From Burkholderiales bacterium (GTDB taxonomy: Bacteria > Pseudomonadota > Gammaproteobacteria > Burkholderiales > Burkholderiaceae_C), in assembly GCA_016219375.1 (NCBI GenBank), contig JACRNC010000023.1:62001-126000 (forward strand): 64,000 bases of DNA. Direction: 5' to 3'. A model generated the notes under the pieces. That model did not search any database, was not told where the DNA came from, and saw nothing but the letters and a program-made list of their open reading frames with translations. The translations under genes were made by a program, and so were the position numbers. Shown piece after piece: positions 36,425 to 40,463 of the stretch; position 1 is the stretch's first letter, and each line of letters begins with the position of its first letter.

Positions 36425-37237
36425 ATGAAAGCCCTGCTGCAACGCGCCCTGCCCATCGTCATCGCCCTGGTCCTGCTGTGGCTGCTGGCGCCCATCGCCA
36501 TCGTGCCCACCGGCTACCGCGGCGTGCTGACCACCTTCGGCAAGTCCAGCGACACCGTCTACGAGCCCGGCATCCACCTGGTGTGGCCGCTGGCGCAGAC
36601 GCTGCACCTGATGGATGTGCGCATCCAGAAAGGCGAGGGCGACGGCGACGCTGCCTCGCGCGACCTGCAGTCGGTGCACACCAAGATCGCCATCAACTAC
36701 CACCTGCGGCCGTCCGCCGTGGTCACGGCCTTCCGCGACATCGGCCCGTCCACCGACGTGGCGGCCGACCGCATCATCCTGCCCGCCGCACAAGAAGCGG
36801 TGAAGGCCGTCACCGCGCGCTTCACGGCCGAGGAGCTGATCTCCCGCCGCACCGAGGTGCGCGACGGCATCGTCGCCATGCTGCGGCAGAAGATGCAGCG
36901 CCACGGGCTGGAGCTCGATGAGTTCGCCATCGTCAACTTCAGCTTCTCGCGCACCTTTACCGAGGCCATCGAGGCCAAGGTCAAGGCCGAGCAGGAGAAG
37001 CTCAAGGCCGAGCGCGACCTGCAGCGCATCGAGGTCGAGGCCCGCCAGAAGGTCGCCAGCGCCAAGGCCGAGGCCGAGTCCCTGGCCCTGCAGCGCCAGC
37101 AGGTCACGGCCGAGCTGCTGCAGCTGCGCAAGATCGAGAACGAGCGCGAAGCCATCCGCAAGTGGGACGGCAAGCTGCCGCAGATGACCGGCGGCGCGGT
37201 GCCCTTCGTGCAATTCGGCCACGCCAACGAGCGCTAG
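36425..37237 (+). CDS. SPFH/prohibitin-family membrane protein
   Basis: A 270-residue protein with one N-terminal transmembrane helix (about 7-25), then a band-7 domain ([25 protein letters not shown], conserved piece [11 protein letters not shown]; later [14 protein letters not shown] and [17 protein letters not shown]). A long charged coiled coil follows (about 185-250, rich in A, E, K, Q). Prohibitin-type proteins form membrane rings and often hold proteases. AGGAG lies ten bases before the ATG. It sits between pyrB and pyrC' with gaps of 13 and 14 bases, so it is part of the pyr operon, although no link to pyrimidine synthesis is known to me. Confidence 0.85.
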
Positions 37238-37251
37238 AGAAGAAGGCGTCC

Positions 37252-38568
37252 ATGAAGATCCTCATCACCAACGGCCGCCTCGTCGACCCCGCCAGCGGCC
37301 TGGACCGCACGGGCGATCTGGCCCTCGCCTCCGGCCGCATCGTCCACCTGGGCGAGGTGCCGGCCGACTTCACGCCTGACCGGCGCATCGATGCCAGCGG
37401 CTGCGTCGTCGCCCCGGGCCTGGTCGACCTGGCCGCCCGGCTGCGCGAGCCCGGCCATGAGCACGAAGGCATGCTGGAGTCCGAGCTCAATGCCGCGGCC
37501 GCCGGCGGCGTCACCAGCCTGGTCTGCCCGCCGGACACCGACCCGCCGCTGGACGAGCCGGGGCTGGTGGACATGCTCAAGTTCCGCGCCCGCAAGCTCA
37601 GCCTGTGCCGGCTCTTCCCGCTGGGGGCGCTCACGCGCGGCCTCAAGGGCGAGGTGCTGACCGAGATGGCCGAGCTGACCGAGTCCGGCTGCGTGGGCTT
37701 CTCGCAGGCCGATGCGCCTATCGCCGACACGCAGATGCTGCAGCGCGCGCTGCTCTATGCCGCCACCTTCGGCTACACCGTGTGGCTGCGCCCGCTGGAC
37801 CCGTGGCTGGGCAAGGGCGTGGCCGCCAGCGGCCCGGTGGCCACGCGGCTGGGCCTGGCCGGCGTGCCGGTCAGTGCGGAGACCGTGGCCCTGCACACCA
37901 TCTTCGAGCTGATGCAGGCCACGGGCGCGCGCGTGCACCTGTGCCGCCTGTCCAGCGCGGCCGGTGTGGAGCTGGTGCGCCAGGCGAAGGCGCGCGGCCT
38001 GCCGGTCACGGCCGACGTGAGCATCAATTCGCTGCACCTCACCGACGTGGACATCGGCTACTTCAACTCCGCGATGCGCCTGATCCCGCCGCTGCGCCAG
38101 CAGCGCGATCGCGACGCCCTGCGCGCTGGCCTGGCCGACGGCACGCTCGACGCGCTGGTGTCCGACCACACGCCGGTCGACCCGGATGCCAAGGCGCTGC
38201 CCTTCGGCGAGGCCGAGCCCGGCGCCACCGGCCTGGAGCTGCTGCTGAGCCTGGCGCTCAAATGGGGCGAGGATGCTGGCGTGGGCCTGTCGCGCGCCCT
38301 GGCCACCATCACCTGTCAGCCGGTGCGGGTGCTGGGCGAGTCGCTGGGCTCGCTGGCATCCAGCGCCGGCCGCCTGGTGGCCGGCGGCGTGGCCGATGTC
38401 TGCGTGTTCGATGCAGCCGAGCGCTGGGTGGTGCGCCCGGATGCGCTGGCCAGCCAGGGCAAGTCCACGCCGTTTGCCTTCGAGCACCTGGGCACCGAGC
38501 TGCCCGGCCGCGTGCGCTGGACCATCGTGGCCGGCACGGTGGCGCATGAGATGCGGGTGGCGGGCTGA
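37252..38568 (+). CDS. pyrC': PyrC', inactive dihydroorotase-like partner of aspartate carbamoyltransferase
   Basis: A 438-residue protein of the class I dihydroorotase fold, with the usual composite beta-sandwich ends. The metal-binding HxH of active enzymes (PGLIDxHVHLREPG) reads PGLVDLAARLREPG, so both His are lost. Further in, GFSQADAPIADTQML replaces the usual GFSDDG and SDHTPVDPDAK has lost the last His of the DHAPH motif. It should therefore be catalytically dead and structural, holding the PyrB dodecamer, as known for pyrBC' of Pseudomonas. The true dihydroorotase must be elsewhere. Start ATG 37252 follows GAAGAAGG. Confidence 0.9.
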   Translation: MKILITNGRLVDPASGLDRTGDLALASGRIVHLGEVPADFTPDRRIDASGCVVAPGLVDLAARLREPGHEHEGMLESELNAAAAGGVTSLVCPPDTDPPLDEPGLVDMLKFRARKLSLCRLFPLGALTRGLKGEVLTEMAELTESGCVGFSQADAPIADTQMLQRALLYAATFGYTVWLRPLDPWLGKGVAASGPVATRLGLAGVPVSAETVALHTIFELMQATGARVHLCRLSSAAGVELVRQAKARGLPVTADVSINSLHLTDVDIGYFNSAMRLIPPLRQQRDRDALRAGLADGTLDALVSDHTPVDPDAKALPFGEAEPGATGLELLLSLALKWGEDAGVGLSRALATITCQPVRVLGESLGSLASSAGRLVAGGVADVCVFDAAERWVVRPDALASQGKSTPFAFEHLGTELPGRVRWTIVAGTVAHEMRVAG

Positions 38569-38708
38569 GCGCTTGCCTGTCCTTGCGCCGCGCCTGCGGT
38601 TTGGTTTGAGTGTGGACGGCTTGGCTCAATGGGTGTCGATGTGACCGGCCTGGCTCGTGGGGGCGGGCTGCGGGTCGAGCTTGTGGTCGCGTGCAGCGGC
38701 CGGCGCGC

Positions 38709-38945
38709 GCAAAGGCCGGGGCGGGGCCGCGGGGCTTCAAGCGCTTGCCCGGGCTGCGCCCGGGTGCCCTGCGATGCTCGGACGGGCGGCGCGCCGTGGA
38801 ACTCGCTTCGCTCACGCCTGCGGCGTTCGCTGCGCTCTGACATCCACGGCGAGTCAGTCCGACGATGCGCGCTGGCGCGCGCCGCCGCCCGTCCTGCGCT
38901 TCTCGGCTGCGCTCAGGCGCCCCGCGGCCCCGCCCCGGCCTTTGC
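38709..38945 (+). repeat. structured interspersed repeat, copy A
   Basis: A 237-bp element bounded by perfect 27-base complementary arms (38709-38735 and 38919-38945; the arm starts GCAAAGGCCGGGGCGG). Inside are a hairpin CCCGGGC-TGC-GCCCGGG, the pair GCCGTGGA/TCCACGGC closing a domain, and ACGCC-TGC-GGCGT. The central part matches copy B in inverted orientation over about 190 bases. Similar peptide strings in databases come to mind from Burkholderiales, so this is probably one member of a larger genomic family; I do not recognise a named family. Confidence 0.8.
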
Positions 38946-39289
38946 CGGTGAGGCAGTGGTGGCGTGCGAGGGGAAGGTGAGGGCGGTGTGTCGCCACGCC
39001 GAGAGTCCTGATGGCGACGGGGATCGCGCCTGGCTGTGCTGCCGAGCACCGCGGACCGCATCGGGTGACGCGGGTCAGCGCAATGCGACCTCACCACGAC
39101 GCCGTGCAAAGTGGAAGGCAGCAGATGGCCTGGGCGCTTCGGCCCCAGGTCAGTACCCCGACGGATGTCTGAGTCACTCCGAGCGAGAGGCTCAAGGTAC
39201 CCAAGCCCGCGGTGCAGCCACCGCCACCCCTGTCACTTGCTGCACTGAAGCCGCAGCTCACCGTCATCCACCACCGACGCGCCAGCGAG

Positions 39290-39523
39290 GCAGCGGGGGC
39301 CGGGCCGGACGCGCGCCTCTGCGCAGCCGAGAAGCGCAGGGCGGGCGGCGGCGCGCGCCAGCGCGCATCGTTGAACTGACTCGCCGGCGTCTGTCCGAAC
39401 GCAGCGAGCGCCGCAGGCGTGAGCGCAGTGAGTTCGACGGCGCGCCGCCCGACCGAGCATCGCAGGGCACCTTCGCGCAGCGAGGGCAAGCAGTCGAAGC
39501 GCGGCCGGCCCGGCCCCCGCTGC
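39290..39523 (-). repeat. structured interspersed repeat, copy B (inverted)
   Basis: A 234-bp element, reverse-complementary to copy A. Its terminal arms are 19 perfect bases (39290-39308 and 39505-39523, starting GCAGCGGGGGCCGG) and differ in sequence from those of copy A. The centre shares GGTGCCCTGCGATGCTCGG, CACGCCTGCGGCG and GATGCGCGCTGGCGCGCGCC with it. Some sequence outside the arms (GTGCAAAGGC and GTGGTGG words) is also shared. Confidence 0.8.
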
Positions 39524-39716
39524 TTCGCCCACTCCAGCCTTTGCACGCCGCCCAGCCGCAGGCGACCCACCACGCTGCGCCAAACCGCACGCCCCCGAGC
39601 ATCGGCATCGGCATCGGGCCGCCTCGCCATCCCATTGCTCCTGCAACGCAGCCCAGAGTGGACTTCAACCCAAGGCCCCACTGCAGCCGCCTCGGCCCCC
39701 CGCAGCGTCCCACCAC

Positions 39717-40463
39717 ATGACTGCCCCCCGCGTCCCCGCCATCGTCGCCGCCTGGCGTCTGACCCGCGTGGTGCTGCATGTGCTGCATGGCGTGGCCGTC
39801 GCCAGCCGCTTCCCGCGTCTGAACCGCGCCGGCCGCGAGCAGCGCATCGTCTGGTGGTCGCGCAAGCTGCTGCGCCTGCTCGGCATCACGCTGCAGGCGC
39901 AGGGCAGCCCACGCCCGCATGCCTGCCTCTTCGTCGCCAACCACGTCTCGTGGCTGGACATCATCGCCATCAATGCCGTGCAGCCCGCGCGCTTCGTCGC
40001 CAAGTCGGAGATCCGCTCATGGCCGGTGATCGGCGGCCTGGTCACGGCGGCCGGCACGCTCTACATCGAGCGCCAGCGTGCCCGCGACGCCGTGCGGGTG
40101 GTCCACGACATGGCTCAGGCCCTGCGCGACGGTGACGTGGTCGCCGTCTTCCCGGAAGGCACGACCGGCCCGGGCGACAGCGTGCTGCCCTTCCACGCCA
40201 ACCTGCTCCAGGCCGCCATCGCCGTCGACGCACCGGTGCAGCCCATGACGCTGCGCTATGCCGACCCGGCCCATCGCCACAGCCCGGCTGCGGCCTACAT
40301 CGGTGACACCACGCTGATGCAGTCGCTGTGGATGATCGCCCGCGCCCGCGGCCTGACGGTGCACCTGGGCATCCAGCCGCCGCAAGGCAGCAGCCATGCC
40401 GACCGCCGCGCGCTGGCCGCCCACCTGCGCGAGCAGATCGCCGCGGCGCTCCTCAGCCAGTGA
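39717..40463 (+). CDS. PlsC-type 1-acyl-glycerol-3-phosphate acyltransferase
   Basis: A 248-residue inner-membrane-associated acyltransferase. The catalytic HX4D motif is in VANHVSWLDIIAIN, the glycerol-phosphate-binding motif is VFPEGTTGPGDSVLPF, and PVQPMTLRY follows. One hydrophobic N-terminal segment is present. It should transfer an acyl group to lysophosphatidate or a related lipid. Gene order pyrB-pyrC'-plsC is common in Burkholderiales, but here the repeat-bearing gap separates it by 1.15 kb. No Shine-Dalgarno is evident before the ATG. Confidence 0.88.
   Translation: MTAPRVPAIVAAWRLTRVVLHVLHGVAVASRFPRLNRAGREQRIVWWSRKLLRLLGITLQAQGSPRPHACLFVANHVSWLDIIAINAVQPARFVAKSEIRSWPVIGGLVTAAGTLYIERQRARDAVRVVHDMAQALRDGDVVAVFPEGTTGPGDSVLPFHANLLQAAIAVDAPVQPMTLRYADPAHRHSPAAAYIGDTTLMQSLWMIARARGLTVHLGIQPPQGSSHADRRALAAHLREQIAAALLSQ

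Follow-up and report, generated by a model that had tools for sequence, protein, structure and literature searches.

A seemingly undescribed family of gene-free, structured mobile elements in Burkholderiales

The window, meaning the whole stretch of 64,000 nucleotides of Burkholderiales DNA analysed here, contains two related repeats that lie in opposite orientation in the gap between two genes. These repeats raise the question of what they are and, more specifically, of what keeps their base pairs while the sequences of their arms drift.

The pyrC-plsC gap and the family of its repeats

The gap of 1,148 nt that holds both repeats separates two tandem genes, a dihydroorotase-like gene (pyrC, 37252..38568, plus strand) and a 1-acylglycerol-phosphate acyltransferase-like gene (plsC, 39717..40463, plus strand), and a codon-usage gene caller found no gene in it. 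The two inverted copies thus lie where the sequence-only reading had placed them. Copy A (38709..38945, plus strand) is one structured unit with the ends GCAAAGGCC...GGCCTTTGC, and copy B (39285..39528, minus strand) is a second, inverted unit with the ends GCGAGGCAGCGG...CCGCTGCTTCGC. A and the inverted B are 84% complementary over 125 nt and 76% complementary over 136 nt. The spacer between their inner ends (38946..39284) is longer than the spacer of about 70-80 nt seen in compact pairs of relatives.

The outer arm of A (38709..38735) pairs perfectly over 27 bp with its other side (38919..38945), as had been claimed. Inside these arms we find a side hairpin at 38748..38764 (38748-38754 with 38758-38764, loop TGC) and a core at 38780..38894, which comprises a closing helix (38780-38791/38883-38894), a further helix (38792-38800/38843-38851), a terminal hairpin and a second hairpin (38867-38882), with conserved unpaired motifs between them. 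B had been given as 39290-39523 with a perfect 19-bp arm pair; this pair is real, but the arms extend to 24 bp with one G.T wobble, 39285..39308 pairing with 39505..39528. The side hairpin of B lies at 39470..39486 (39470-39476 with 39480-39486, loop GCA on the plus strand). The comparison of this inner stem between the copies, CCCGGGC-TGC-GCCCGGG in A and CCCTCGC-TGC-GCGAAGG in B, does contain the two compensated pairs attributed to it, but a C.A mismatch in B on the written strand had been overlooked. On the other strand this mismatch is a G.T wobble, and it therefore agrees with the strand result given below. Inspected by eye, the last proposed replacement, GTGGA/TCCAC by GTCGA/AGACG, is compensated in part only (GTC/GAC, followed by a bulged GCC/GGC), and a different pairing is favoured there when B is folded alone.

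Two further features were observed around the repeats. A spurious reading frame of 363 aa, rich in Ser, Glu and Arg (SERSERRRRERSE), crosses both units at 38629-39720 of the window, and public genomes may list frames of this kind as proteins by mistake. Within the pyrimidine cluster, a gene for a Band_7/SPFH protein (36425-37237) separates the aspartate carbamoyltransferase gene from the dihydroorotase-like gene.

Further copies were sought in the host genome and its relatives and were found in both. BLAST with B gives 17 clear copies in the own genome, and a covariance model built from 49 diverse cores (threshold E 1e-4) gives 18. With A as BLAST query, 21 of the 61 genomes listed have matches, the own genome included. 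The model finds the element in 25 of the 42 listed genomes of the host genus, which is probably Aquabacterium, with 0 to 42 copies per genome and no match in the other 17. Across the family, 90 of the 150 sampled genomes listed and 80 of the 126 genera have model matches. A pattern scan of named genomes returned at least 115 stretches, and the 80 loci among the matches listed include records from Aquabacterium, Variovorax, Rubrivivax, Pelomonas, Rhizobacter, Xenophilus and Piscinibacter. Two pattern matches (L148 and L143) were also seen in metagenome bins labelled Sedimenticola and Arenicellales, outside Burkholderiales, and could reflect transfer or binning error. The viral contigs scanned contained no such stretch. 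Plasmid records gave no match for copy A or for an Aquabacterium composite, and a Variovorax composite matched one record, a 2.48-Mb Variovorax paradoxus replicon.

Rfam 15 gave no match up to E 5 for window positions 38500-39800, and for six loci from several genera its sole match was weak (E 0.51, below the cut-off) and lay outside the units. No description or name of the family was found in a literature search covering mostly titles and the starts of abstracts, and six names from the order have no occurrence in the accessible part of PMC3733652. A widespread family of gene-free mobile elements in Burkholderiales thus seems to be undescribed. An element of such reach in the family, yet without a name that we could find, also has a covariation record that is unusually rich for a mobile repeat.

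Covariation of the fold and the strand that carries it

Folded as RNA, copy A has a z-score of -8.4 against 200 dinucleotide shuffles, and copy B, folded as DNA, one of -3.6. The consensus is laid out as outer arms, a side hairpin, an internal loop, a closing helix with two branches, and a second internal loop. The first internal loop has the conserved motifs CTGCG-TGCTCG / CTGCGCT-CTCG; in the second, AACTC is invariant and GCTCAAACA is strongly conserved. These loops are conserved across genera, and the conserved part of the unit is the branched core, not the ends alone. The helix of the consensus core is absent from the single-sequence fold of B.

The claim that compensatory changes are kept within each copy was beyond test with two copies. 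It holds in an alignment of 49 diverse sequences (A1), in which 38 of the 40 consensus pairs show double-sided changes and for which the controls collapse. Indeed, 90.0% of the cells in A1 pair, against 67.6% in shuffles, and 433 cells are doubly changed, against a mean of 139 in shuffles and at most 123 when the structure is slid along the alignment. The covariation score is 0.548, compared to 0.167 after shuffling and no more than 0.111 in every slid version. The further copies therefore leave the structural claim of the sequence-only reading standing: they covary very strongly instead of showing arm changes that are not complementary, and the family is not an already named one in Rfam.

We then asked on which strand this fold is kept. 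RNA tolerates a G-U wobble and does not tolerate an A-C mismatch, and the complementary strand swaps the two. Inferred changes were counted on trees, over the pairs found on folding either strand. On the written strand, A-C events outnumber G-U events by 91 to 19 in Aquabacterium type-1 units (63 rows), by 11 to 0 in the own genome (17 rows) and by 52 to 21 in A1 (49 rows); the 28 rows of type-2 units give 15 and 8, a difference that is not significant. The excess was replicated with 40 units drawn from one genome in each of five other genera (A-C 26, G-U 7, p = 0.0013), the loci being new to the analysis and their genera possibly overlapping those named in the pattern scan.

Two RNA controls, oriented to the RNA strand before counting, behave in the opposite way, as RNA on its own strand should. 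RNase P of the order shows 50 G-U events and 6 A-C events (29 of the 30 loci fetched from 60 matches, one being dropped for length), and one type of the cobalamin riboswitch of the genus shows 13 and 1 (17 of 26 usable rows; 30 loci were fetched from 50 matches, of which 4 were dropped for length and 9 as another sequence type). As A-C exceeds G-U on the written strand and the reverse is seen in the controls, the selected fold lies on the strand opposite the written one, namely the minus strand of the window for A and the plus strand for B.

Imposing common helices on every row gives totals of 96 G-U and 206 A-C, with G-U and A-C at 24 and 22 in the own-genome rows and at 31 and 33 in the type-2 rows; with pairs from the rows' own folds on both strands, the same two sets give 0 against 11 and 11 against 21. 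The complementary strand is also the more stable one, at -181.7 compared to -173.3 kcal/mol for A and -171.4 compared to -161.0 kcal/mol for B, and it folds better in further units of the family as well. Standing wobbles are less frequent on the proposed strand (about 2-4%) than in the RNA controls (about 9-20%), but wobble events are similarly common relative to double changes, at 91 per 256 in the elements and 50 per 187 in the control.

The strand asymmetry bears on the possibility that the arms evolve in concert without selection, template switching at replication correcting the hairpins and producing paired changes. The long perfect arms that differ between copies, such as the 27 bp of A, would fit this process, as would the many double changes and few standing intermediates of A1. 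Nevertheless, such correction should be strand-neutral, whereas A-C is at least 2.5-fold over G-U in four of the five element sets, the fifth being the non-significant type-2 set, and conservation of the loops across genera also speaks against it. We therefore give template switching very little credence.

Together, the covariation and the strand-specific wobble asymmetry support the earlier suggestion that the structure is maintained by selection or by an enzyme that needs folded DNA or RNA. That one elaborate fold is retained on a single strand suggests a copying machinery that recognises RNA or single-stranded DNA in its folded form. In DNA, G-T is also milder than A-C, so the wobble test fits both kinds of molecule; we consider RNA of the complementary strand slightly likelier than single-stranded DNA. 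No promoter-like sequence was noticed by eye in the spacers, which makes the RNA version harder to picture. More generally, a count of this type addresses the choice between duplex DNA and RNA or single-stranded DNA of one strand, and it can be extended to palindromes such as REPs and MITEs.

Dispersal, pairing and genomic context

In all of the 29 same-genus loci examined, pyrC and plsC are about 2-152 nt apart with no element detected (39 other genomes have a plsC match), which indicates that the insertion in the window is lineage-specific. Copies at unrelated sites are found within single genomes. Three composites of one genome (L085, L097 and L111) agree at 90-92% over about 540 bp, beyond which they diverge immediately on both sides into unrelated flanks, and two single units of another genome (L131 and L135) share 286 bp at 96% with sharp ends and, again, unrelated flanks. 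The highest identity between same-genome copies at different sites is about 97%. These observations bear out the proposal of a non-autonomous mobile element. Several copies also occupy an equivalent place, with shared flanks, in different species, and part of the present distribution is therefore inherited.

The copies compared showed no excision, circle or fresh insertion. One unit is absent from L137 relative to L100 and L084; its junction is not clean, and a deletion may explain the absence. The first unit is absent from L156 relative to L161 and L165, also without a clean junction. No target-site duplication was detected in 16 composites, with no excess over permuted flanks, and old copies could have lost theirs. 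This result weighs against the idea of a classical MITE derived from a DDE insertion sequence, in which the hairpin would be a mere by-product of long inverted ends. Gene-free units with paired ends and dispersed copies agree with that origin. In addition to the missing duplications, however, conservation extends to the branched core, and a wobble bias specific to one strand is unexpected for a MITE, which makes this origin quite unlikely.

The units, which are about 235-290 bp long, also occur in pairs of a fixed orientation. Neighbours within 1 kb of each other are convergent (plus, then minus) in all of the 73 sequence-distinct cases, namely four in the own genome, 37 in same-genus loci and 32 in named loci; these pairs are distinct in sequence, yet orthologues in different species were counted separately. 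The four own-genome pairs are C22:100709/101290, which is the pair of the window, C16:168921/169285, C23:7464/7805 and C1:151040/151465. At distances of 1-5 kb, four neighbours are convergent, two divergent and one direct. The 20 composites used for replication are all convergent too, which is no independent count since they were picked from a list of pairs.

The compact spacer of Aquabacterium, about 70-80 nt, is itself a hairpin. Two genomes (G246 and G182) have 12 near pairs among the matches listed, all with a start-to-start pitch of 278 nt, and in their 12 aligned composites a unit with GGCAAAGG-type ends commonly stands opposite one with GCGGCAGG-type ends, much like A and B. What usually moves is a convergent pair, made up of two related unit types with a short spacer between them, and single units appear to move too. 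Given the folded strand assigned above, the two strands of a pair are read outward from the spacer.

The elements sit behind genes and shun promoter regions. Using a simple codon-usage gene caller on loci selected for carrying the element, we count 52 convergent, 57 tandem and 5 divergent gaps with an element, compared to 8 convergent, 145 tandem and 55 divergent among the remaining gaps of 60 nt or more in these loci. Such a position might indicate a structured RNA or 3' element that is beneficial to the host, for example a bidirectional terminator, a stabiliser of mRNA 3' ends or a transcription insulator between convergent genes, which spread because it is useful. Enrichment between convergent genes and depletion between divergent ones would be expected of such an element, and the conserved loops, the presence in 80 of the 126 genera (among the genomes listed) and the retention at an equivalent place in several species are consistent with it. 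Against it, the 17 genus genomes without a hit and the 29 relatives whose pyrC-plsC gap lacks the element do without it, and at least one copy (L135) lies behind a pre-existing terminator-like hairpin, as judged by eye. Moreover, intrinsic terminators need no branched structure of about 220 nt. We consider a host function of this kind unlikely, although less so than a MITE origin.

Candidate mobilising machinery and known systems

The sequence-only reading had looked to a transposase or tyrosine recombinase shared by the genomes that carry the repeat, and none was found among the Y1_Tnp, RVT_1 and IS110 families in the genus. Y1_Tnp is absent from the own genome and shows no association with carriage, occurring in 12 of the 25 carriers and 10 of the 17 non-carriers among the genus genomes listed. 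In the same set, RVT_1, with none in the own genome, occurs in 9 of 25 carriers and 6 of 17 non-carriers, and IS110, likewise without association, in 7 of 25 and 7 of 17. Around the 12 Y1 loci fetched, no unit lies within about 1.3 kb, and two loci have one about 4 kb away.

Pairs with units about 0.8-2.4 kb apart were examined for a transposase, as candidates for an autonomous version, and were found to enclose unrelated genes. These are a gene for a PIN7 protein (L095:2740-3530), one for a DUF1963 protein (L164:808-3240), one for a 205-aa protein without a Pfam hit (L188:329-1845), two overlapping frames, one of which has a MalM hit below the cut-off only (L204:483-2341), and a Phd/YefM antitoxin domain together with a PEP-CTERM/DUF642 protein (L351:2676-4329). 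In L164 and L188 the second unit and its outer flank are common and the inner genes differ, giving the appearance of a cargo hotspot. Such different single genes between paired units also make integron attC sites a conceivable parallel. The spacers of several long pairs (L164:850-1000, L188:380-520, L103:2700-3100 and L112:2740-3200) seem, by eye, to contain degenerate tandem arrays of about 20-30 nt.

An IS110-family element was found at L212:4350-5780, with TGGACGCCTCC...GGAGGCGTCCA near its ends by eye. It is inserted inside the second unit, and its gene was therefore rejected as the family's own. The insertion point lies approximately at the conserved GAGAAGCGCAG loop, and folded repeats may be targets of IS110 elements.

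We propose that A and B are probably units of a non-autonomous mobile family that is moved in trans via a folded strand, like REPINs but far larger. Each gene-free unit folds end to end into a multibranched structure, and an enzyme supplied in trans would recognise it in the form of one folded strand, the complement of the written orientation, and copy or move it. Recognition of a folded strand would explain both why pairing persists as the arm sequences drift and why wobbles are tolerated mainly on one strand. The sites behind genes would then probably be those where insertion is tolerated or targeted. Identification of the enzyme would uncover machinery able to read about 220 nt of folded strand.

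A bolder reading is that the family is a mobile structured RNA without a protein. The outward strand of each unit would encode an RNA, resembling a ribozyme or a guide, that serves directly as the recognised substrate or the guide of the mobilising machinery. It would spread in divergent RNA pairs through most of the genera sampled in this Burkholderiales family and at times flank single cargo genes, such as those for the PIN-domain protein and the YefM-type antitoxin. We regard this as a tentative possibility, clearly less likely than the trans-mobilised family proposed above.

Several known systems resemble the trans-mobilised family in part. Like MITEs, its members are short, non-autonomous and dispersed, with paired ends; they differ in having no target-site duplication that we could find, a conserved branched core and a strand-specific wobble bias. 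The omega RNAs of IscB and TnpB, including HEARO, and the bridge RNA of IS110 are structured RNAs tied to mobile elements, and they share with the family a branched, RNA-like fold of a few hundred nucleotides at the end of a mobile element. The family nevertheless has no attached protein gene, no IS110 association and no Rfam hit. Unlike retro-elements and group II introns, it shows neither an association with reverse transcriptase in the genus nor an Rfam match. Burkholderiales-1, which appears as a table line without an Rfam number in the accessible part of PMC2864571, is likewise a candidate structured RNA from Burkholderiales, and the comparison extends to that line.

The closest likeness is to REPINs and BIMEs. 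According to the accessible part of PMC3116915, REPINs are inverted doublets of palindromic units that are extragenic and show compensatory changes. The family, too, consists of gene-free, extragenic, palindromic inverted pairs, often of two related types, with many copies, compensatory changes and a likely movement in trans; the inverted doublet is seen in the convergence of all 73 neighbours and in the dispersal of whole composites. These features could mean that the units are true REPINs, moved by a RAYT since lost from the host genome, and a Y1 protein is indeed present in 22 of the 42 genus genomes listed. The units, however, are far longer than REPs, which are 20-40 bp according to the accessible part of PMC3733652, and have a conserved multibranched fold of about 235-290 bp in place of a REP hairpin. 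Near both ends of 138 units, GTAG and CGTC tags and their complements turn up less often than in shuffled ends, GTAG occurring near the two ends of 15 and 3 units against 33 and 18. Together with the absence of a Y1 association in the genus and of units close to the Y1 loci, this makes true REPINs very unlikely. The family works like REPINs on a larger scale, yet lacks the unit size, tag and partner that define them.
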